NCBI GenBank assembly: GCA_013204385.1
Contig: JABMNY010000026.1
Coordinates: 1 to 48,842, forward strand
From: Candidatus Uhrbacteria bacterium
Lineage (GTDB): Bacteria; Patescibacteriota; Patescibacteriia; UBA9934; GWF2-40-263
Length of the DNA: 48,842 nt
Reading direction: 5' to 3'
In this document: in pieces, positions 7,091 to 17,752 of the stretch
Layout of the letters: each line of letters opens with the position of its first letter
Position numbering within the stretch: position 1 is the first letter of the stretch
The notes under the pieces: model-generated
Database searches by the model: none
Seen by the model: only the letters and a program-made list of their open reading frames with translations
Told to the model about the DNA's origin: nothing
Made by a program: the position numbers and the translations under genes

Positions 7091-8173
7091 TTAAAGCTCT
7101 ACAAAACTATTATCTCCAACAATCAACCGATGACCTGTTTTTGGATGTGTTCGCTTGTAGTCAACAAGCTGTGCGTTCACTCCGATAAGACTGTTTACAA
7201 TGCGTCGTGTCGTGTCGATGGATGCTCCTTCAAAAATAATGGAGTGTTCAACTTCTGTTTCATGAATCACAACCCCATCTCCAATAGCGGTATACGGTCC
7301 AATATAGCTTGAAGTAATTTTACAATTCTTTCCAATCACCACTGGCCCACGAATCATACAATCTGCGGTAATGACCGTTCCTTCCCCAATCGCTACAGGA
7401 CCTTGAATCTGAGCGTCTTCATGAGGCTGACAATCAACACAATATTCTTCACGAGGCGTATCATCCATGATAAGCGCATTCCCCTCAATAAGGGCGTCCG
7501 GGGTTCCTGTATCCTTCCACCAGCCAGTAATCTCTTCATGACCGACAGTTCCATTGTTAATGTACCACGTGATCACGTCCGTAATTTCGTATTCACCTCG
7601 TGATGAAGGTTGAATCGTTTTGTACGCGTCAAAAAACTTTTCATCAAAGAGATAGATTCCTGTCACCGCAAATGGTGATGGAGGATTTTCTGGTTTTTCA
7701 ATCGTTGATTTTAGTTTTCCGTCCGGATGAAATTCTGCGACACCAAAACGTTGTGGATCCTTTACATGAGAAAGCGCGATCATACAATCAAGCCCTTCGT
7801 TCTGAAATCGATCAACAAACTGATTGATGGAACCGAGAATAATATTATCTCCAAGAAAGAACAGGAACCGTTCTCCTTTGAGATGCTCTTCTGCGTTGGC
7901 TACCACATGCGCAAGCCCCTTCGCTCCTCCACGCTGTTCCAAATATGTGATCTTCGCTCCAAACTCAGACCCATCGCCCAAATTCTCGCTCATGTACTTC
8001 ACCTCACCAGGATTCACATTAATAATGATATCCATGATACCGGCATCTGTAATCTTTTTGAGAACATACCAAAGCATAGGCTTATTCGCGAGCGGAATAA
8101 GATGTTTGTTCCGTGTCCAGGTAATTGGGCGAAGCCGTGTCGCATGACCACCAGCTGCAATAAGTGCTTTCAT
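7091..8173 (-). CDS. rfbA: Glucose-1-phosphate thymidylyltransferase, long form with left-handed beta-helix
   Basis: MKALIAAGGHATRLRPITWTRNKHLIPLANKPM; C-terminal hexapeptide-like repeats. Confidence 0.85.
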   Translation of the reverse strand: MKALIAAGGHATRLRPITWTRNKHLIPLANKPMLWYVLKKITDAGIMDIIINVNPGEVKYMSENLGDGSEFGAKITYLEQRGGAKGLAHVVANAEEHLKGERFLFFLGDNIILGSINQFVDRFQNEGLDCMIALSHVKDPQRFGVAEFHPDGKLKSTIEKPENPPSPFAVTGIYLFDEKFFDAYKTIQPSSRGEYEITDVITWYINNGTVGHEEITGWWKDTGTPDALIEGNALIMDDTPREEYCVDCQPHEDAQIQGPVAIGEGTVITADCMIRGPVVIGKNCKITSSYIGPYTAIGDGVVIHETEVEHSIIFEGASIDTTRRIVNSLIGVNAQLVDYKRTHPKTGHRLIVGDNSFVEL

Positions 8174-8221
8174 AGTTTTAGGACTTTACTCCTTTTTAAA
8201 GAAAAAGGTCAATCTATAAAG

Positions 8222-8247
8222 AAAAAGCAACCATATTTCAGGTTGCA
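8222..8247 (-). terminator. Hairpin terminator of 8319..9014 gene
   Basis: GCAACC...GGTTGC followed on minus strand by TTTTTC. Confidence 0.6.
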
Positions 8248-8318
8248 AGCGTACCCAGGTGTTTTCCTTTACAAGCCCTTTTGAAGCTTGTAGAGGGAAG
8301 AACCTAGATGTCGTTTGT

Positions 8319-9014
8319 TCAGGCGAGCAGCGACATGGCACTGCGCAGATGTCCGTTGAGGAGCTTCCTGCGTCGGGCTTCACGAAGAGTCTCACGAGAC
8401 ACCCATATGAAGTCATCTGGATTCGACGATCGAGCGGTCGCGTGGTCGATCAGCTCACGATCCGTCACCATGAGTCCATACTGGTTCTCCTTCTCGAAAA
8501 ACCTTCCGCCGTCCTCCGAAGCCAGTTCCCATTCCTTGAATCCACGGACGATCACGATCAATGGAACGCGCGAACCATGTGCATTCATATTGGCCATACT
8601 TGCCTGGAAGGGCGGACTCAGAAGCACACGACTCTGAGAACCGTCTTTGAGGACGACTCCCATGTTGCCGGGCTCCGCCTTGGCACGCACGAGTACGTCC
8701 CCGGACTCGTTGTCGACAATGAGCAGGATGTACCCACCCTCGTCAACCACCATCGGAGACTCCCAAGCCGTGACCTCACGACCGGACCCCACCTTCGTCA
8801 CCACGTTCACCACGCGGTAGAAACGACCGTCCGGACGCCCGATTGCGTCGGTACCCACGACCCACCTGGACGGGGGATCCTCGGAATCCTCGACGAGCTG
8901 ACCCGTCTGAGGGAATTCCTCGAACTCCCCAATCTCCGCCTGCATCGCCAACCGCGGGGCATTGCGGAGCAGCCAGTCATATGCTCCTGCATACGTATCG
9001 TGTACTTCAGACAT
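8319..9014 (-). CDS. Half-length NDP-hexose 2,3-dehydratase-like protein
   Basis: DGRFYRVVNV, VLVRAKAEPGN...LLSPPFQASMANMN, FIWVSRETLREARRRKLLNGHLRSAMSLL resemble motifs of EvaA/TylX3-type dehydratases; start MSEVHDTY preceded by GAAGAGG. Confidence 0.7.
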   Translation of the reverse strand: MSEVHDTYAGAYDWLLRNAPRLAMQAEIGEFEEFPQTGQLVEDSEDPPSRWVVGTDAIGRPDGRFYRVVNVVTKVGSGREVTAWESPMVVDEGGYILLIVDNESGDVLVRAKAEPGNMGVVLKDGSQSRVLLSPPFQASMANMNAHGSRVPLIVIVRGFKEWELASEDGGRFFEKENQYGLMVTDRELIDHATARSSNPDDFIWVSRETLREARRRKLLNGHLRSAMSLLA

Positions 9015-9094
9015 CATCAACCTCTTCAATCCGTGTCAGGCACGGTAATATGTGCACCTCTGAAGGCGCGTTGGTCTGGCTTATGCCAGGCATA

Positions 9095-9123
9095 AACATA
9101 GTCGAGCGGATCGATTTTGTCAA
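9095..9123 (-). promoter_or_regulatory. sigma70-type promoter TTGACA-N17-TATGTT
   Basis: TTGACA (9118-9123), TATGTT (9095-9100) on minus strand. Confidence 0.6.
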
Positions 9124-9127
9124 TCAT

Positions 9128-9152
9128 AAAACCGAGCGTTTGCTCGGTTTTT
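9128..9152. terminator. Bidirectional terminator
   Basis: AACCGAGC-gttt-GCTCGGTT with flanking A and T runs. Confidence 0.75.
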
Positions 9153-9166
9153 GTTGGTTTGTTTGA

Positions 9167-10045
9167 TTAACAGCTACATGTTCCACTTGGAGTACAGCAC
9201 CCTCCTTCTTTCTTTGCTGCCGCATACTTCTCGAGCGTCTCACGTAAAGCTTCCTGAACAGGACGCATGACTATATCGAACTTGGCAAGGTTCTCAGATG
9301 CCAAGAAGTTATTTGATCGTCCTTTTGTTGCAAGACCTTGAGCAACAAGCTCCTCGTTCGCAATCCATTCATTTGTATGCGTTGGATCAACAAGTTCTTC
9401 GTAGAGCCCGATAAGATCACGGTGCTTCATCGTTCCGGGATTTGTCACATGAAAAATTCCTTCTGCGTTCTTTTCAAGCAACTGATGAAACACATCTACC
9501 ATATCGTCGACAATCGTCACAGAATTTTCCACATCAATCACCTTTGAAAACGCCGCAAGTTTATCAATGAGGTTCCCTGGAGCTGGCATCCAATCGATTG
9601 GCATGCGGATTCGACCGATCCCAACGTTTGGAAGGGATGAGAGCGCAAGGTCTGCCGCCCACTTACTACGAGAGTACACGGGGCTTGGATTGCCAAAATC
9701 GTCCTCACGCCAGGCATTATCCGGATGCGGAGCGTCTCCATAAAAAATGCATCCTGACCCCATGTGAAGCATGTACACTCCCGCTTGCGCACACGCGTCT
9801 GCAAGCAACAGTGGCATGGTTGTGTTTCCGCGCACCGTTTCGATCTGATGGTCTTCACACCAATCCACGTTTGGTCTTCCTTTTATTCCAGCGGCATTGA
9901 ATACGGCGTCCGGCTTCACCCGATTGATTTCATTCAAGGCATCTTCTACTGAATTGACATGGACGTCAGACAAGACGGCTTCTTCTCCCCAAGCTTGAGC
10001 ACATCGCTCCCCCATGTATCCTTTTCCAAAAATGAGAATTTTCAT
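9167..10045 (-). CDS. NRS/ER-type NDP-4-keto-6-deoxyglucose 3,5-epimerase/4-reductase with Cys-rich tail
   Basis: GKGYMGERCAQ; NAAGIKGRPNVDWCEDHQIETVRGN; GCIFYGDAPHP; YSRSKW; RIRMPI; FHVTNPGTMKHRDLIGLYEE; ends GGCCTPSGTCSC. Confidence 0.75.
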   Translation of the reverse strand: MKILIFGKGYMGERCAQAWGEEAVLSDVHVNSVEDALNEINRVKPDAVFNAAGIKGRPNVDWCEDHQIETVRGNTTMPLLLADACAQAGVYMLHMGSGCIFYGDAPHPDNAWREDDFGNPSPVYSRSKWAADLALSSLPNVGIGRIRMPIDWMPAPGNLIDKLAAFSKVIDVENSVTIVDDMVDVFHQLLEKNAEGIFHVTNPGTMKHRDLIGLYEELVDPTHTNEWIANEELVAQGLATKGRSNNFLASENLAKFDIVMRPVQEALRETLEKYAAAKKEGGCCTPSGTCSC

Positions 10046-10046
10046 A

Positions 10047-11048
10047 TTATCGTTTTCCATATTGTTTTTCGTAATACTCCTTATATGCCCCTGTTCGGCA
10101 TCGGTCCACCCATTCTTGGTTTGCACGATACCATTCAACTGTTTTGGCGAGCCCTTCTTCAAAGCTTACTTGCGGAGCCCACCCAAGTTCCGTACGGAGT
10201 TTGTTTGAATTGATCGCATACCGTCGATCATGGCCGGGACGATCTTCCACATATTCGATCGCGTCTTGTCCACGATCTGTAAGCTCTAATAATTTCTGCG
10301 TGATATCAAGATTCGGTTCACGGAACCCCGTTCCAATATTGTAGACTTCGCCCATTTTTCCTTTTCGCGCGATCACATCAATCGCTCGACAATGATCCTC
10401 TGTATAAATCCATTCACGAATCTGCATTCCATCTCCATAGACAGGAACAGTTTTTCCCTCAAGAAGATTCATGGTGAACAGCGGAATGAGTTTTTCAGGG
10501 AACTGATACGGTCCATAGAAGTTGCAAGAGTGTGTGACGATGACCGGCGTTCCATACGTTGTCGCATATGCCTGACATAAGTGATCTCCCGCAGCCTTTG
10601 AAGCTGAGTAGGGTGATCGTGGCTCAAACTTGGAACCCTCGTCACTCTCCCCTTCCATCACTGCCCCAAACACTTCGTCCGTTGAGATCTGTACATAGCG
10701 TGGAATGTTGTGTTTTCGCACGGCCTCCAAAATGTTGTACACCCCGTAAATATTTGTATCGATGAATGCTTTTGGCTCTAAAATAGACCGATCTACATGC
10801 GTCTCAGCGGCGTAATTTAAGATAAGATCGACCCCTTCGACAACACGCTCAACCGCTTCTGCATCACTAATACTCCCTTTCACAAATGTGTACCGAGGAT
10901 CATCCGCAATGTCCGCTAAACTCTCAAGATTTCCTGCATAGGTCAGATCATCAAAATTGACGATCTCCACATCAGGATATGTTCGTAACAAGTAATGAAT
11001 CATGTTAGAGCCCATGAACCCAGCTCCACCGGTTAAAAGTATTTTCAT
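10047..11048 (-). CDS. rfbB: dTDP-glucose 4,6-dehydratase
   Basis: GGAGFMGSNMIHYLL...HVDRSI...YVQISTDEVFG...SPYSASKAAGDHL. Confidence 0.92.
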   Translation of the reverse strand: MKILLTGGAGFMGSNMIHYLLRTYPDVEIVNFDDLTYAGNLESLADIADDPRYTFVKGSISDAEAVERVVEGVDLILNYAAETHVDRSILEPKAFIDTNIYGVYNILEAVRKHNIPRYVQISTDEVFGAVMEGESDEGSKFEPRSPYSASKAAGDHLCQAYATTYGTPVIVTHSCNFYGPYQFPEKLIPLFTMNLLEGKTVPVYGDGMQIREWIYTEDHCRAIDVIARKGKMGEVYNIGTGFREPNLDITQKLLELTDRGQDAIEYVEDRPGHDRRYAINSNKLRTELGWAPQVSFEEGLAKTVEWYRANQEWVDRCRTGAYKEYYEKQYGKR

Positions 11049-11602
11049 AGTGTATTTCGATAATTCACAACACGCTCACGCATCAACTGCCAGGCACAGA
11101 CCGTAAACCCGTCCCAAACTTCACCAGAGCTAATGGCCTCATCTACTTCCTCAATAGTCATAAGCACCTGTTCAAATTCTTCTGCTTCCTCGGGCTGAGT
11201 TTCTCCTGCTTCTAAATCCGTTGCAAAGAAATACGTTGTGTATTCCTGCAAAATTCCCGTTGATGGAGCGAGCTTTGCAACCATCTCGATAGATTTTGCA
11301 GAATATCCAGACTCTTCTTTCAACTCTACGACAACGGCTTCCAAAGCAGACTGACCAACTTCTATTCCTCCAGAAGGAAAGGCGAGACTGATGCGATTAA
11401 AAATATACCGGTACTCTCGATGCAATACTAAACGCCCATCACTCAAAACAGGAACGACCATCACAGAACCAACAGGGGTCTTCATGTAATAGTAGTCTCC
11501 TGTGTGACCATCGGGAGTCTCAAATGTATTATGGATATATGAGCTCCAATGGTTTTCGTTAATCACTTCTGAGGAGAGTGTTTTCCAGGGTTTTAAATCC
11601 AT
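11045..11602 (-). CDS. NUDIX hydrolase (ADP-sugar pyrophosphatase-like)
   Basis: FPSGGIEVGQSALEAVVVELKEESGY; overlaps rfbB start by 4 nt. Confidence 0.8.
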   Translation of the reverse strand: MDLKPWKTLSSEVINENHWSSYIHNTFETPDGHTGDYYYMKTPVGSVMVVPVLSDGRLVLHREYRYIFNRISLAFPSGGIEVGQSALEAVVVELKEESGYSAKSIEMVAKLAPSTGILQEYTTYFFATDLEAGETQPEEAEEFEQVLMTIEEVDEAISSGEVWDGFTVCAWQLMRERVVNYRNTL

Positions 11603-11603
11603 A

Positions 11604-11966
11604 TCATGACTTGATAAATAGATACACGAGAGAAGGAGAGAGAAACAATAGAAGTCCTAAAATTAAGCGATAGATCCCCACATCTTCGATTAGTCCCCAG
11701 GTTAACATAGCTAGGACGAGACCGAAAGTAAGAGCTATTAAGATATGAACCCCTCTTCGCTCAACGTAATCTTCCATCACCCACACCCAGAGCGACCCGG
11801 ATAGAATTGCGGCAAATAAAAAGATATGGACAGAAAAATAGCGTGACACGAATCCTGGTTGAATGATGTCTGCCAACCAAAAAAGAAGATAGGAGAGTAA
11901 GGAAACCAAAAAACTTGTACGGGAAATGACGACCAACGGCTCCATTTTTTTCTGCTTCCAGACCAT
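11604..11966 (-). CDS. Small multi-pass membrane protein
   Basis: Several hydrophobic segments. Confidence 0.6.
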   Translation of the reverse strand: MVWKQKKMEPLVVISRTSFLVSLLSYLLFWLADIIQPGFVSRYFSVHIFLFAAILSGSLWVWVMEDYVERRGVHILIALTFGLVLAMLTWGLIEDVGIYRLILGLLLFLSPSLVYLFIKS

Positions 11967-11968
11967 AA

Positions 11969-13387
11969 CTAGTACTGATTAAACAAGATATCAATCTGAT
12001 GAATCAACAAGCTCGCGTCGAGCTCCTTGATGAGAGGGGTTGAGAAACTAAATTTCCATGTTTGCGATTCTTGGTACAAATCCCAGGCAATAAATCGAAC
12101 GCGTGCCACAAGCCAATTTCCTTCCTTGCGAGGAGATTCATATTTAGCAAGAACATAGGAAACACCTAATTGTTCGATGGTGGTATAGGAGTTCAGAGAA
12201 ACAGGATCAGGATTAAAGTACTGTGACGGTGAAAAAGAATAGGTCCCTTCGGTTACAATTTCAACATCTCCTTTTGGAAGTGTGACCTTCTCTAACCCCT
12301 CTCCCGCAAAAGAGAGAACGTACCATACATAGGGCTCTTGAATTTCAAGTGTTTGAGATCCTGCGACCAGCGTTTGCACACCTTCTGCATGCCTGGTTTG
12401 AAGACGAAGCCGTTTTGACTGCGTGTAAAATGTCCCCCCTGTCCCTGAATCTTTAAAGCCAACTTCATCTCCAATAAATACCGTATTCAAAAAAACAATT
12501 TTTTGTTGAGGAGTTACGATTTTTCGAAAGAATATATCCCGCGGAACATTCATCACAACTTTATAGACCCCCTCAGGTAACCCATAGGCCGTCAGGTGCA
12601 ACTCCTTCAATCCCTGATCTACAGAGGAATCGTCCTGGATATTTCCATCGTCTGCCGCGCGAGCTTCAGCCACAGGCTGACCCGCCTCATTAAACACCGT
12701 GATCTGGACCACATCAGCCCCTTCATCACGATTCATATCCATGTAATAGAATGTAAAATCAAGCACCTCGTTCTTGATATAGGTTTTAAATTCATGGTGC
12801 CCACGTAGAGAGACATCGATTTGCTGAAGCTCTTGTGTTGGCACATATCCCTCAAGCCGATACGAAACATCAAGCTCTGTGCGATATACCGCTACCGCAT
12901 CTTGTGCAGGTGGATCAGCCAAAAATGAAGAGATTGAATCGTATGTTTTCTCTTTTTGTAACAGCACAAGCCCCCCTTCATCCATACGGCTCCATGTCGA
13001 TTCATCAATCAGACGATTATGTAGAGGAAACAGAGAGTACACATCTGGATTTGTTCTCACGAGCCCACCAAGTTCAACAATGGGGACTGTCTCATTTTGA
13101 AACCAAACATCAATCACAACCTCATCAAAAAAGTCCCGATGCGGGTGAACAAAGAAAAAAACGGGATCCTCGAGAATCGCCTGAACCGATTCCCCTGCGT
13201 TCGATTTCTCAACATCAGCTACTCTTATTTCTGGTTGTAAGGCATCCACAAACGGAGAATCCTCTCCTACAACATGAGAAACAAAAAATCCACCAGAGGG
13301 CACAATCCACTGACTGAGTAACCAACACATAATCCCTATGGGAATGGCAACGATAAAGAGCTGAATGATTCGAGTTAAAAATTTCAT
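11969..13387 (-). CDS. Membrane-anchored extracytoplasmic hypothetical protein
   Basis: N-terminal TM (IIQLFIVAIPIGIMCWLLSQWIV) then long non-TM region. Confidence 0.65.
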   Translation of the reverse strand: MKFLTRIIQLFIVAIPIGIMCWLLSQWIVPSGGFFVSHVVGEDSPFVDALQPEIRVADVEKSNAGESVQAILEDPVFFFVHPHRDFFDEVVIDVWFQNETVPIVELGGLVRTNPDVYSLFPLHNRLIDESTWSRMDEGGLVLLQKEKTYDSISSFLADPPAQDAVAVYRTELDVSYRLEGYVPTQELQQIDVSLRGHHEFKTYIKNEVLDFTFYYMDMNRDEGADVVQITVFNEAGQPVAEARAADDGNIQDDSSVDQGLKELHLTAYGLPEGVYKVVMNVPRDIFFRKIVTPQQKIVFLNTVFIGDEVGFKDSGTGGTFYTQSKRLRLQTRHAEGVQTLVAGSQTLEIQEPYVWYVLSFAGEGLEKVTLPKGDVEIVTEGTYSFSPSQYFNPDPVSLNSYTTIEQLGVSYVLAKYESPRKEGNWLVARVRFIAWDLYQESQTWKFSFSTPLIKELDASLLIHQIDILFNQY

Positions 13388-15075
13388 GGAGTTATACTAA
13401 TGCGATAAAGAGATTCTTCATCGTATGTTTCAATCCGTTCGATCCCAAGATTCATCCGCTTCAAACGCGACTCATTGAGATATGTAAGATCCTCTTCTGG
13501 AAACGTAATTCCATAATAATACAGACCGGATTCTTCAACGAGTGCAGGCATGGCCTCATAGGTTGCCTCGTCTCGCAAAGGATACCAAACGGATCGATGC
13601 GGGAAAAATAATTTATCTGCGCGATCGACAATAATCACAGATGTCACTTCTGTATAGCGCAATACAGATTCTTGTATTTCAGCTCCACGAAGAACTTCTG
13701 CACGCATCTTGAGAAGTCCGTCTTGTCCTTGAAGGAATGTCGCGTTTACATTGAGCCCTATCACTGCAAGCAAGAACGTCGCAATGATCAATCCTCGTGT
13801 GAGTGTACTTCGCCCTCTAGAAGACACCCACCGGATCGTCATGGCCACCATGGGTGTCGCACACACATACATCGGCAACCAATAACGCACATAGGAGTTT
13901 GCCATCGTAATTTGAGTTGGATCTGGATTGTCATGAATCTCCCAACTTCCGTACATAAACACAAGCCAGATACTGATCCCTGTTGCAAGAGCTACCACAA
14001 AACGCAACGTGCGACGATGTGCCTTTTGTGCGAGGAGCAAAAAGAATCCTGGGAGTGCGAGTAACGAGATCCACCAAAACATCGTAACACCGTACGCTAA
14101 AAAATGTCTCCAGGCATTCATTGGATGAAATCCAAATGGAAGAAGGGCAACGGAATCAATTGAGTCCGTGATTGGAATATCGATCACGGGAGTAGATCCA
14201 ATCGTATAGCCTGTCGTAAACGCAGAACCATACGTCAGGGTATTCATCAACAACAGTAATGCGATCCCGACCGTTAATCCAAACATTCCTGCACGCAAAC
14301 GCCCCCAAGAAATAGTTCTCCACCAAATAAGTCCCGCCAGTAGAAGTGCTCCTGTCATCCACAATGCCTCGGAAGTTCGGACAAAAAATGTAAGCCCAAT
14401 CAATAGCCCTGCAAAGAGTTCATTCCAGATGCTAGGAGTTTTACCTCTTCCTATCGGTCTATTCACCCACAACCATGCTCCCAATACAAGCAGATCAAGA
14501 AAGAGCACGTTATGCATGAGGCCACGCGCGGTGTAATACCAAATTGCAGGATGAAGGAGAAACAGAGCGAACGCCAGTGCACCAACAAGATCAGAGGTAA
14601 ATCGTGCAATGAGCTTCTTCCAGGCAAACGCCGCAATAATAGTGAGGAGAGGCGTGAGAAACCAAAGAACTTTTGACCCGAGAATCATCACAAAAAAACC
14701 ATAAAGAACAGGGAGTCCAAGAAAGCTTCCTGGAACCACCCTCCCCTCAAGCACAAGCGTACTACGTGGATGAAGACGATCAAAGCTTTGCAAAAGATCA
14801 TTCTGCTCTCCTTGAGGAATCAATGTTTGTGCAACTCGTTCGGCAAAAAAACCGTTTGCGGTCTCGTCAGGTGAAACAAACACGTATGCAGGATTCATCA
14901 AAACCAAGCTCCCCACCAAAAAGAGGAGGGCAATCAACCCCATCCACACATGTTGAAACGGGAATCGATCTTTAGAGGCCATACGTAAAAAGACTAATAA
15001 CAGCAAACACAATCGCGAGAGATAGCGTTCCAACAGAGATCGGAATAAAGAGATCAAATCCAGCCCAAAGCGCAA
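13384..15075 (-). CDS. Multi-pass membrane glycosyltransferase-like protein (ArnT/PMT-like)
   Basis: Many TM segments, SPDETANGFFAERVAQ near N-terminus, C-terminal soluble tail. Confidence 0.55.
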   Translation of the reverse strand: MRFGLDLISLFRSLLERYLSRLCLLLLVFLRMASKDRFPFQHVWMGLIALLFLVGSLVLMNPAYVFVSPDETANGFFAERVAQTLIPQGEQNDLLQSFDRLHPRSTLVLEGRVVPGSFLGLPVLYGFFVMILGSKVLWFLTPLLTIIAAFAWKKLIARFTSDLVGALAFALFLLHPAIWYYTARGLMHNVLFLDLLVLGAWLWVNRPIGRGKTPSIWNELFAGLLIGLTFFVRTSEALWMTGALLLAGLIWWRTISWGRLRAGMFGLTVGIALLLLMNTLTYGSAFTTGYTIGSTPVIDIPITDSIDSVALLPFGFHPMNAWRHFLAYGVTMFWWISLLALPGFFLLLAQKAHRRTLRFVVALATGISIWLVFMYGSWEIHDNPDPTQITMANSYVRYWLPMYVCATPMVAMTIRWVSSRGRSTLTRGLIIATFLLAVIGLNVNATFLQGQDGLLKMRAEVLRGAEIQESVLRYTEVTSVIIVDRADKLFFPHRSVWYPLRDEATYEAMPALVEESGLYYYGITFPEEDLTYLNESRLKRMNLGIERIETYDEESLYRISITP

Positions 15076-15550
15076 TGAGAAGGAGAAGGACTCCTATCAC
15101 CTGCAAGAACATCTTTGTTTTTCCAAAAATATTCGAACCGATCGTCTTCCCACTTCTTTTTCGTGCATACCCACCCACAAGAAGCAATGCTTCAATTCCC
15201 ACAATTAGCAATGCAAAGAGAATGTTGACATGCTGTACAACCACGAGAAGAATCACAGACCCAATCAGAATCTTATCTGCAAGTGGATCGTAGAACGTTC
15301 CCCAGTCAGTTACTTGTTCTCTCAGACGGGCAAGCGAGCCATCTATCGCATCAGTAAATGCCACAAAGAGAAATAAAGGAACTCCTATTTGAAAATTCCC
15401 AAGATATAAAAACCAAAGAACGATGGGTGTCATCACAATTCGAAACATCGTTACCATGTTCGGCGTAACAAAATGTGGAATGAGTGGAATGAACGTATAT
15501 CGCATGACATGGTCATGTGGATACAACTTATGTGGATTCCGTTCAAACAT
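14972..15550 (-). CDS. CDP-alcohol phosphatidyltransferase
   Basis: FTDAIDGSLARLREQVTDWGTFYDPLADKILIGS, i.e. D..DG..AR....G...D..AD. Confidence 0.88.
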   Translation of the reverse strand: MFERNPHKLYPHDHVMRYTFIPLIPHFVTPNMVTMFRIVMTPIVLWFLYLGNFQIGVPLFLFVAFTDAIDGSLARLREQVTDWGTFYDPLADKILIGSVILLVVVQHVNILFALLIVGIEALLLVGGYARKRSGKTIGSNIFGKTKMFLQVIGVLLLLIALWAGFDLFIPISVGTLSLAIVFAVISLFTYGL

Positions 15551-15610
15551 AGAAGAAGAGGTCTCTCATCGAGTTTTGAGAGGATCTCTGGTAAAATAGA
15601 GCTCAATACT

Positions 15611-17752
15611 ATGCTCCAACGAATTCAGCTTATCATTTTTTCAGTGCTCTTTCTAGCGTTGTTTTTCTTAAACAGTGCCTTGATTGAAAGCCAAACCTTC
15701 GGGATTGTCTTATTGTGTTTCTATCTCGGAGTATTTGGCTGGGAACTTGGAGGTGTCTTAGTCAAATCCGAAAAAGCGATTCTTCGTTGGTGGATTGGAA
15801 TTTGGGTACTTTTGTCAGTCATTTTGATTGTCCTCACTGGCAGTTATTACGTCTGGCAAATCACTCAAACACTGGTTCTCACCCTCATTTTCCTAACTCC
15901 ACCACTGATTCTTTGGGTAACGAAACGTTTTCCTTCCCGTTCACTTTTTGCGCATGCACATGATCTTTGGCATACGCGTCGACATCGCATTCCAGGCATT
16001 GTTTGGGTTGTGATGACGGCTCTTGTTTTTACCTTTACGCTCTTTTTTCTTACGCTTCTCAATCACCCGGTCACAGAAGGGATTCGCTCTGTGTGGGAAC
16101 GACTGCCAGGAAGTCTATTCGTCCTCTTTCTTCTTGCGACGTCACTTGTGTTTGCTCTTTTATGGCGAGGAAAAGAGCGTGCCCTCAGTCTAGTTGGAAT
16201 CAGCCTCCTGTTATTTGCCACCCTCTCTGTTGTTGCCTTTGTCTTTCCGCTCGGATTTGGATTTGATTCATTTATTCATAAAGCAACCGAGATGCATCTT
16301 GCAGAGTTCGGTACAATCAGTCCAAAACCGTTTTATTATATTGGTCAGTATGCCCTTGTGCTCTTTGCCCATCATGGGTTTAACATCTCCATTGACCTCG
16401 CAGACACATTTCTCGTCCCCTTTCTTGCCTCACTCTTGCTCCCGATGGCGTGGTATTTTGCAGCAGTCCACATCACTCGCAAGCGCTCCATCTCCATGCT
16501 CACCCTCACAGGAATTTTCCTTCTTCCGCTTTCGCAATTTATCGTGACCACCCCACAAGCACTCGCTAATCTCTGGACACTTCTCCTGATCCTTGCCTCC
16601 GTTCCTTATTTGCTCGATCAAGAACATCCTCGCCTTCGTATTCTAGCTCTCGGGGCCGGTGCAACAGCGCTCATCCACCCCATCGCAGGAATTCCAGCCC
16701 TCCTGTACTTTATGTTTCTCACAACAGACCCAAGTCGCACAAACCCTCGAACTCCAAAAACAAATAGAATTGTGCGAATGATTCTTGGGGTGTTTGCCTG
16801 TATTGTCCTTCCACTCTCCTTCGTGATGAATAGCCTTGTGAGCAATCAAGCACTTTCCTTAAATTGGGAATCGCTCAATCCGCTTAGATGGCTTACCGCT
16901 TTTAATTTCAACGTCTTTTTTGAAAATCGATTCTCTCCACTTTTGGATCTTGTGTATTTGTATGGATTGAACACCCTGTTGATTTTGGTTCTGATCGCAG
17001 GGTTTGCCTGGATGGAATATCGAAAAGATCTCTCAAAACGTTTTCGCGCACTTCTCTTGATGGTTCTGGCTCTGACGGTCAATTATTTAATCATGTCCAC
17101 GTTTTTAGAATTCACCTTTTTAATTGATTACGAGCGTGGAAACTACGCTGGACGTCTTCTCCCACTTATTCATTTCTTCCTGACTCCACTACTCATTTTG
17201 GGACTAGGGCACCTCTTTGTGAACACGAAGTCTCACCCAATTGTTCTCCGTGCGTCCGTACTCGCCATCCTGATCACCTTTGCGGGAAGTAGTTTTTATC
17301 TGAGCTACCCACGTCGCGATGCCTATGAAACAAACCGTGGGTTCAATGTCAGTCAGTCGGATATCGATGCGGTGTATCTTGTCGAGTCCTTGGCGGCAGG
17401 AGCCCCCTATCTTGCCTTGGCAAACCAATCTGTTTCAGCGGGAGCCATCGGAGAGATCGGCTTTCGCTACTATGGCGATCTCTTCTTCTATCCAATTCCA
17501 ACAGGCGGTCCACTCTACGAATTTTTCCTCGCCATGAATGCGTCCCCAACACGCGCAACAGCTCTTAAAGCGCTCGAACTTGCTCCTGAGCACGGAGATA
17601 TAAACACACTCTTCTTCCTCGTAAACAATTACTGGTGGGATGCCCCAAGAATCATTGAAACGGCAAAAGCGACTGCGGATGACTGGCGTAGTCTTGGAGA
17701 CGGAGAAATTTATCTCTTTCGCTATAACTTTGGGGTTGACCAGACCCCCTAA
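15611..17752 (+). CDS. Large multi-pass membrane protein, GT-C-like
   Basis: ORF 15473..17752; start at MLQRIQLIIFSVLF begins first TM helix; over ten TM segments. Confidence 0.6.
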   Translation: MLQRIQLIIFSVLFLALFFLNSALIESQTFGIVLLCFYLGVFGWELGGVLVKSEKAILRWWIGIWVLLSVILIVLTGSYYVWQITQTLVLTLIFLTPPLILWVTKRFPSRSLFAHAHDLWHTRRHRIPGIVWVVMTALVFTFTLFFLTLLNHPVTEGIRSVWERLPGSLFVLFLLATSLVFALLWRGKERALSLVGISLLLFATLSVVAFVFPLGFGFDSFIHKATEMHLAEFGTISPKPFYYIGQYALVLFAHHGFNISIDLADTFLVPFLASLLLPMAWYFAAVHITRKRSISMLTLTGIFLLPLSQFIVTTPQALANLWTLLLILASVPYLLDQEHPRLRILALGAGATALIHPIAGIPALLYFMFLTTDPSRTNPRTPKTNRIVRMILGVFACIVLPLSFVMNSLVSNQALSLNWESLNPLRWLTAFNFNVFFENRFSPLLDLVYLYGLNTLLILVLIAGFAWMEYRKDLSKRFRALLLMVLALTVNYLIMSTFLEFTFLIDYERGNYAGRLLPLIHFFLTPLLILGLGHLFVNTKSHPIVLRASVLAILITFAGSSFYLSYPRRDAYETNRGFNVSQSDIDAVYLVESLAAGAPYLALANQSVSAGAIGEIGFRYYGDLFFYPIPTGGPLYEFFLAMNASPTRATALKALELAPEHGDINTLFFLVNNYWWDAPRIIETAKATADDWRSLGDGEIYLFRYNFGVDQTP

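Follow-up and report, generated by a model that had tools for sequence, protein, structure and literature searches.

Gene Organization and Genomic Context

The window, a DNA stretch of 48,842 nucleotides, came from the genome (1.05 Mb, 97% complete) of a groundwater-type Candidatus Uhrbacteria relative. The features of the locus are given in Table 1. All genes of the cluster, which encoded a Nudix hydrolase, RmlB, NRS/ER, a PF03559 protein and RmlA-long, were located on the minus strand. The PF03559 gene began with an ATG at 9014, its stop codon ended at 8319, and a TTG at 9029 was an alternative start. The motifs quoted in an earlier note on this DNA (VLVRAKAEPGN, LSPPFQA, RFFEKENQ and FIWVSRETLREARRRKLLNG) were all present in this minus-strand frame. 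The neighbours named there (rfbA, rfbB and an epimerase/reductase) were confirmed by profiles and PDB matches as RmlA-long, RmlB and an epimerase/reductase, the last of which matched 4qqr (3,5-epimerase/4-reductase) at 3.5e-48 and 7jid (UDP-L-rhamnose synthase) at 2.9e-28. A plus-strand reading frame at 8259-9095 was dismissed as an antisense shadow, the homology being on the minus strand. A broken two-domain gene was also dismissed: the domain was complete from start to end, the length was similar in five relatives, and the second half was absent. The same applied to a phage or viral origin, for which no match was obtained in phages or IMG/VR.

Table 1. Features of the dTDP-sugar locus in the window.
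Feature	Position	Strand	Basis
RmlA-long, glucose-1-phosphate thymidylyltransferase	7091..8173	-	TIGR01208, 387.6 bits (cut-off 320)
Terminator-like hairpin (8246-8227) and promoter-like site (8212-8183) between PF03559 gene and rmlA	8183..8246	-	Pattern scan only
Single-domain NDP-hexose 2,3-dehydratase-like gene (PF03559), 231 aa	8319..9014	-	Pfam, EvaA match, AlphaFold, Foldseek
Codon of E167 in SEDGGRFFEK, aligned to catalytic EvaA E190 (pocket A)	8514..8516	-	Alignment; PMC8987622
Codon of E114 in KAEPGN, aligned to catalytic EvaA E139 (pocket A)	8673..8675	-	Alignment; PMC8987622
Insertion at approximately residues 38-50 (GQLVEDSEDPPSR), immediately preceding conserved W51	8865..8903	-	Column analysis
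Promoter-like TTGACA-17-TATGTT upstream of PF03559 gene	9095..9123	-	Pattern scan only
Terminator-like hairpin, 10 pairs, between NRS/ER gene and PF03559 gene	9128..9151		Pattern scan only
Plant-type NRS/ER, bifunctional dTDP-4-keto-6-deoxyglucose 3,5-epimerase/4-reductase	9167..10045	-	PDB matches; ATG 10060 also possible
RmlB, dTDP-glucose 4,6-dehydratase	10047..11048	-	TIGR01181, 449.8 bits (cut-off 365)
Nudix hydrolase, overlaps rmlB start	11045..11602	-	PF00293, 6.6e-13

The plant NRS/ER is described as bifunctional (PMC6556577). No RmlC was present in the window genome, which would be expected if the NRS/ER performs both last steps. RmlA, RmlB and NRS/ER thus suffice for the formation of dTDP-L-rhamnose, and the PF03559 gene is not needed. 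In these CPR genomes (window 9167-10045 and relatives L037-L084), an NRS/ER of the plant/mimivirus type replaced RmlC plus RmlD beside RmlB and RmlA, an arrangement found in 33 of the 59 related genomes searched. As a terminator-like hairpin and a promoter-like site, both consensus matches only, flanked the PF03559 gene on each side, this gene may form its own transcription unit. Its GC3 was 0.68 versus 0.37-0.45 in the other dTDP-sugar genes of the window, and in all five relatives it was also above that of its neighbours, although only slightly in one (G388). Next to the cluster, the region 11604-17752 encoded a small membrane-like protein, a 472-aa protein and membrane proteins of 563, 192 and 759 aa in an order kept in relatives; these conserved genes are probably involved in surface glycan synthesis.

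Five more genomes in the family showed the order RmlB-NRS/ER-[PF03559 gene]-RmlA; four of them bore the title Candidatus Uhrbacteria and the fifth "bacterium isolate DeMMO2_27". The gene occupied this slot across four genera of the family. The window copy was 35-40% identical to its nearest kin. None of the five other members of its genus that were searched had the gene. Most relatives contained RmlA, RmlB and NRS/ER without the PF03559 gene; in many of the sampled family and order genomes the three genes stood in a row, with the slot empty or filled by other genes. Moreover, the NRS/ER tree placed the window among genomes lacking the PF03559 gene. Because the gene is patchy and GC-rich and the NRS/ER of the window falls among those of gene-less genomes, the data fit either an exchangeable accessory slot or a PF03559 gene that has been lost repeatedly.

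The other occupants of the slot were also compared. The slot gene of L023 (4080-4787) was Nudix-related (1.3e-6), and a slot family found in L070, L072 and L076 was linked by BLAST to this Nudix protein at values up to 7e-10. A weak Nudix match was also obtained for L070 5518-6369. Most of the alternative slot genes were GC-rich relative to their neighbours, like the PF03559 gene. Accessory genes of the Nudix fold seem to accumulate in this slot, as in a hotspot. The slot family members (L070:4483-5340(-), L072:4850-5581(+) and L076:3876-4604(+)) had no Pfam match, shared 49-61% mutual identity in BLAST and were GC-rich. When the profile of the PF03559 family was compared with that of this slot family (A4), no significant homology was obtained (hhalign probability 6.5%).

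Domain Assignment and Catalytic Residues

The earlier note had proposed a 2,3-dehydratase of half length, to be given up if no such profile matched. The 231-aa protein contained one PF03559 domain (E 3.9e-19, 69.3 bits, curated cut-off 25 bits), in which residues 49-230 covered positions 28-203 of 203, i.e., most of the domain, and membership of the sequence family was thereby established. EvaA was its only convincing PDB sequence match (2e-8), and a profile of the six Uhrbacteria-type copies matched EvaA at 1.3e-20 and nothing else in the PDB up to E 1. The AlphaFold model, based on 33 sequences, had a mean pLDDT of 91 and a pTM of 0.86. The top Foldseek match of this predicted model was again EvaA (9.2e-9, TMq 0.55), followed by single-domain NDP-sugar Nudix hydrolases at about 2e-5, which indicated an EvaA-like Nudix-type fold. 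The comparison of a monomer model with 2,3-dehydratase structures that the note had suggested thus agreed with the profile and PDB sequence matches, and all three pointed to the EvaA type. No match to the NUDIX profile (PF00293) was obtained, Pfam up to E 1 gave only PF03559, and no Nudix box was seen in the sequence. The two tandem homologous domains that characterize an EvaA/TylX3 chain were absent, and no second PF03559 match was found in the 1.05-Mb, 97%-complete genome. Because of the one domain and the lack of a second PF03559 match, the protein was classed as a single-domain relative rather than as an EvaA-type enzyme.

EvaA depends on E139 and E190 of pocket A but stays active when pocket B is changed, and pocket B has been termed an inactive leftover of duplication (PMC8987622). 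The active-site check proposed in the note had a clear outcome: both glutamates were kept, as E114 and E167. They were found in all six Uhrbacteria copies and also in the thaumarchaeal and actinobacterial single-domain proteins (singles). Pocket B is given as E352 and D353 in the same review, and the PDB chain as aligned has V at 352 and D at 353; the numbering of E352 in the review, or of the PDB chain as counted, may be off.

A column analysis was performed for 84 domains (22 singles, 31 N-halves and 31 C-halves). The E139 position was E in every single and N-half and in 27/31 C-halves. Glutamate occupied the E190 position in all 31 N-halves, in 18/31 C-halves and in 13/22 singles; these 13 included all the Uhrbacteria, thaumarchaeal, aenigmarchaeal and actinobacterial ones. 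A second single-domain set (L028, L029, L030, L089, L092, L122 and L123) kept E139 and had K, Q or A in place of E190; such proteins perhaps catalyse a different reaction.

The conserved columns of the twelve singles keeping both glutamates (G183 left out) were compared with those of the halves. Four were common to N-halves only (F65, N117, N142 and K175), four to C-halves only (R79, E80, G170 and R171), and eight, including D168 and H222, were peculiar to the singles; only one column was common to both halves but not the singles. N117, N142 and K175, which are typical of active N-halves but not of C-halves, were kept in the window protein. One idea, offered as such, is that R79, E80, G170 and R171 might be residues given in trans to the pocket of the partner subunit. 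The insertion listed in Table 1 was hardly seen in other domains, and its pLDDT was about 60 in the AlphaFold model.

Single-Domain Homologues and Phylogeny

Single-domain homologues were found to be widespread in a scan of GTDB representative genomes, a point that the earlier note did not mention. They occurred in Thaumarchaeota (Nitrosopumilus and another Marine Group I thaumarchaeote), Aenigmatarchaeota, Actinomycetota MAGs, other CPR bacteria (Peregrinibacteria and Magasanikbacteria) and one proteobacterium (Candidatus Thiobius). The single was the sole PF03559 match in most of these genomes. Two Actinomycetota also carried a two-domain copy on another contig, one Magasanikbacterium had three matches, and each of the other five Uhrbacteria-type genomes had exactly one. 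In the Thaumarchaeota, the Aenigmatarchaeota and an Acidimicrobiia MAG, the single-domain protein was the only PF03559 found; it therefore probably acts without a second half. No description of such single-domain enzymes was found in the open-access papers searched.

The gene neighbourhoods of these homologues were informative. In L093 and L094, the single-domain gene was directly followed by a Gfo/Idh/MocA oxidoreductase gene (with an overlap of 4 bases in L093), and a DegT aminotransferase gene adjoined. Gfo/Idh/MocA, DegT, RmlB and RmlA all occurred within about 8 kb of the single-domain gene in L097 and L099, the Gfo/Idh/MocA gene being adjoining in L097 and within 6 kb in L099; in L100 it came directly after the single-domain gene. 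The thaumarchaeal Gfo/Idh/MocA protein was closest to 3rbv, named sugar 3-ketoreductase (8.7e-48), which we take to be KijD10. Classically, 2,6-dideoxy sugars are made by a TylX3-type dehydratase and, after it, a KijD10-type 3-ketoreductase. Because the thaumarchaeal single abuts a KijD10-like 3-ketoreductase, the classical next step, the single-domain members are probably real 2,3-dehydratases, a reading to which the archaeal and actinobacterial gene pairs lend good support. The thaumarchaeal pair beside the DegT gene (L093:6405-9328 and L094:7797-10750) likely represents archaeal 2-deoxysugar synthesis. A natural unfused pair was seen in G183 (L031:7139-9619, +), where two separate half-length PF03559 genes flank a Gfo/Idh/MocA gene.

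In the domain tree (unrooted, no outgroup), separate branches were obtained for N-halves (99/88), 20 singles (100/97) and C-halves (79/64). The window protein grouped with the five other Uhrbacteria-type copies (99/95) on a long branch. Because the branches were separate, the singles did not branch off from a modern N- or C-half. An origin from either half of a modern two-domain protein was thus unsupported, the singles being nested in neither branch. The own branch and the mixed column pattern favour a single domain older than the duplication as plausible in this unrooted tree. The "ancestral single-domain" suggestion of the earlier note was therefore sustained in part: the branch and the column patterns are compatible with it, but a tree of similar appearance would result if one half had been lost early, before diversification of the two-domain proteins.

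Proposed Function and Alternative Explanations

The reading that we prefer, to which a probability of roughly 0.5 is assigned, is that the Uhrbacteria protein would be a homodimeric single-domain 2,3-dehydratase that uses an E114/E167 pocket to dehydrate dTDP-4-keto-6-deoxyglucose at C2-C3 and diverts part of the rhamnose precursor towards 2,6-dideoxy sugar formation. It is supported by the family, the predicted fold, the catalytic residues, the conserved position in a dTDP-sugar locus and the pairing of other singles with a 3-ketoreductase. For this organism, we infer the dimer, the substrate, the reaction and the next step as follows. RmlB would supply dTDP-4-keto-6-deoxyglucose. Two Nudix-fold subunits would associate by analogy with EvaA, each with a site of the EvaA pocket-A type in which E114 and E167 take the place of E139 and E190. 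Water would be removed across C2-C3, and part of the rhamnose precursor would be diverted. The NRS/ER, the reductase found beside the PF03559 gene in every Uhrbacteria-type locus, or another SDR is guessed to reduce the diketo product because no KijD10-type 3-ketoreductase was found in the window genome; a route combining such a dehydratase with NRS/ER, without any known example, is likewise a guess.

The sole Gfo/Idh/MocA protein of the window genome (C42) was 23% identical to the thaumarchaeal one, and its closest dehydrogenases were 3q2i/3q2k. Gfo/Idh/MocA proteins were absent in four of the six genomes with the PF03559 gene, as were DegT aminotransferases, and G408, G416 and G390 lacked both. 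For DegT, the window genome yielded a single weak fragment at the end of a contig, and neither a Gfo/Idh/MocA 3-ketoreductase nor a DegT aminotransferase was found there as a C3 partner. Co-occurrence with Gfo/Idh/MocA was discarded as support for an Uhrbacteria dideoxysugar pathway; its presence does not track the gene. 2,3-dehydratase function is less sure in Uhrbacteria than for the archaeal and actinobacterial singles: the window genome has no KijD10-type partner, rhamnose synthesis does not require the gene, and the gene has a patchy distribution and a high GC content.

The missing reductase partner would also suit a Nudix-fold protein that has passed beyond the dehydratase reaction, still binds dTDP-sugars and handles the RmlB product or dTDP-L-rhamnose otherwise (housecleaning, feedback on the rhamnose pathway or isomerisation). 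What the NRS/ER-RmlA slot favours may then be a Nudix-type helper and not a dideoxysugar branch, as suggested by the mostly GC-rich slot genes of L070, L072, L076 and L023, which were Nudix-related or BLAST-linked to a Nudix protein, and by the second Nudix gene in the same cluster (11045-11602). However, the Uhrbacteria copies retain the two dehydratase glutamates together with the signature residues of N-halves, none of which simple binding would require, and the hhalign comparison with the other slot family was not significant; this explanation, the main rival, is considered less likely than the dehydratase. An accessory gene that was acquired recently or is decaying, and that has no settled role in the window genome, would account for the high GC3, the absence from the other five genus members, the place of the window in the NRS/ER tree, the long branch and the insertion. 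Such a gene is unlikely given an open frame with all motifs, a high-confidence predicted fold and the same slot in four genera. The separate half-length proteins around the Gfo/Idh/MocA gene of G183 bring to mind a heterodimer with its second half encoded at another locus, but with one PF03559 match in each of the six Uhrbacteria-type genomes, the window genome included, this arrangement is very improbable.

For the homodimeric dehydratase, a wider view is possible though doubtful: the singles would be the living pre-duplication state, homodimers with two equal sites that were later fused to leave one working and one relict pocket, and the Uhrbacteria singles together with plant-type NRS/ER would constitute an undescribed minimal dideoxy-sugar route in genomes of about 1 Mb. 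The ancestral single-domain homodimer as such is plausible on our analysis. A widespread single-domain branch with the catalytic set offers a direct way to test the origin of the two-domain enzyme and lets one ask whether one domain suffices. It also bears on the question of 2-deoxy sugar synthesis in archaea and reduced CPR bacteria. Its value lies more in the whole branch and the archaeal members than in the Uhrbacteria gene alone.

Comparison with Known Systems

Single-domain NDP-sugar Nudix hydrolases (E. coli YffH GDP-mannose hydrolase and ADP-ribose pyrophosphatase) resembled the 231-aa protein in fold and single-domain size; their identity to it was about 10%, and it matches no NUDIX profile. 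The thaumarchaeal, aenigmarchaeal and actinobacterial singles share with the 231-aa protein the single domain, both glutamates, the EDGGR motif and H222, and they fall on one tree branch with it (20 rows, 100/97). Those of Thaumarchaeota and Actinomycetota adjoin or lie near Gfo/Idh/MocA and DegT genes, whereas the Uhrbacteria ones are found in an RmlA-RmlB-NRS/ER locus without them.

EvaA-type 2,3-dehydratases are enzymes of antibiotic-sugar pathways, and to our knowledge, EvaA (the Amycolatopsis orientalis dTDP-sugar 2,3-dehydratase; PDB 4j7g/4j7h) is the one well-characterised sugar 2,3-dehydratase. EvaA has two domains per chain (471 residues in 4j7g), whereas the Uhrbacteria protein has one in 231 aa and, unlike the EvaA type, also carries R79, E80, G170 and R171, typical of C-halves. 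Its gene has no neighbouring 3-ketoreductase or C3-aminotransferase and is found in a rhamnose locus, not an antibiotic cluster. The PF03559 domain, the Nudix-type fold, the two pocket-A glutamates, the N117/N142/K175 signature and the dTDP-sugar gene context are common to the Uhrbacteria protein and EvaA, TylX3, Gra27 and SpnO.
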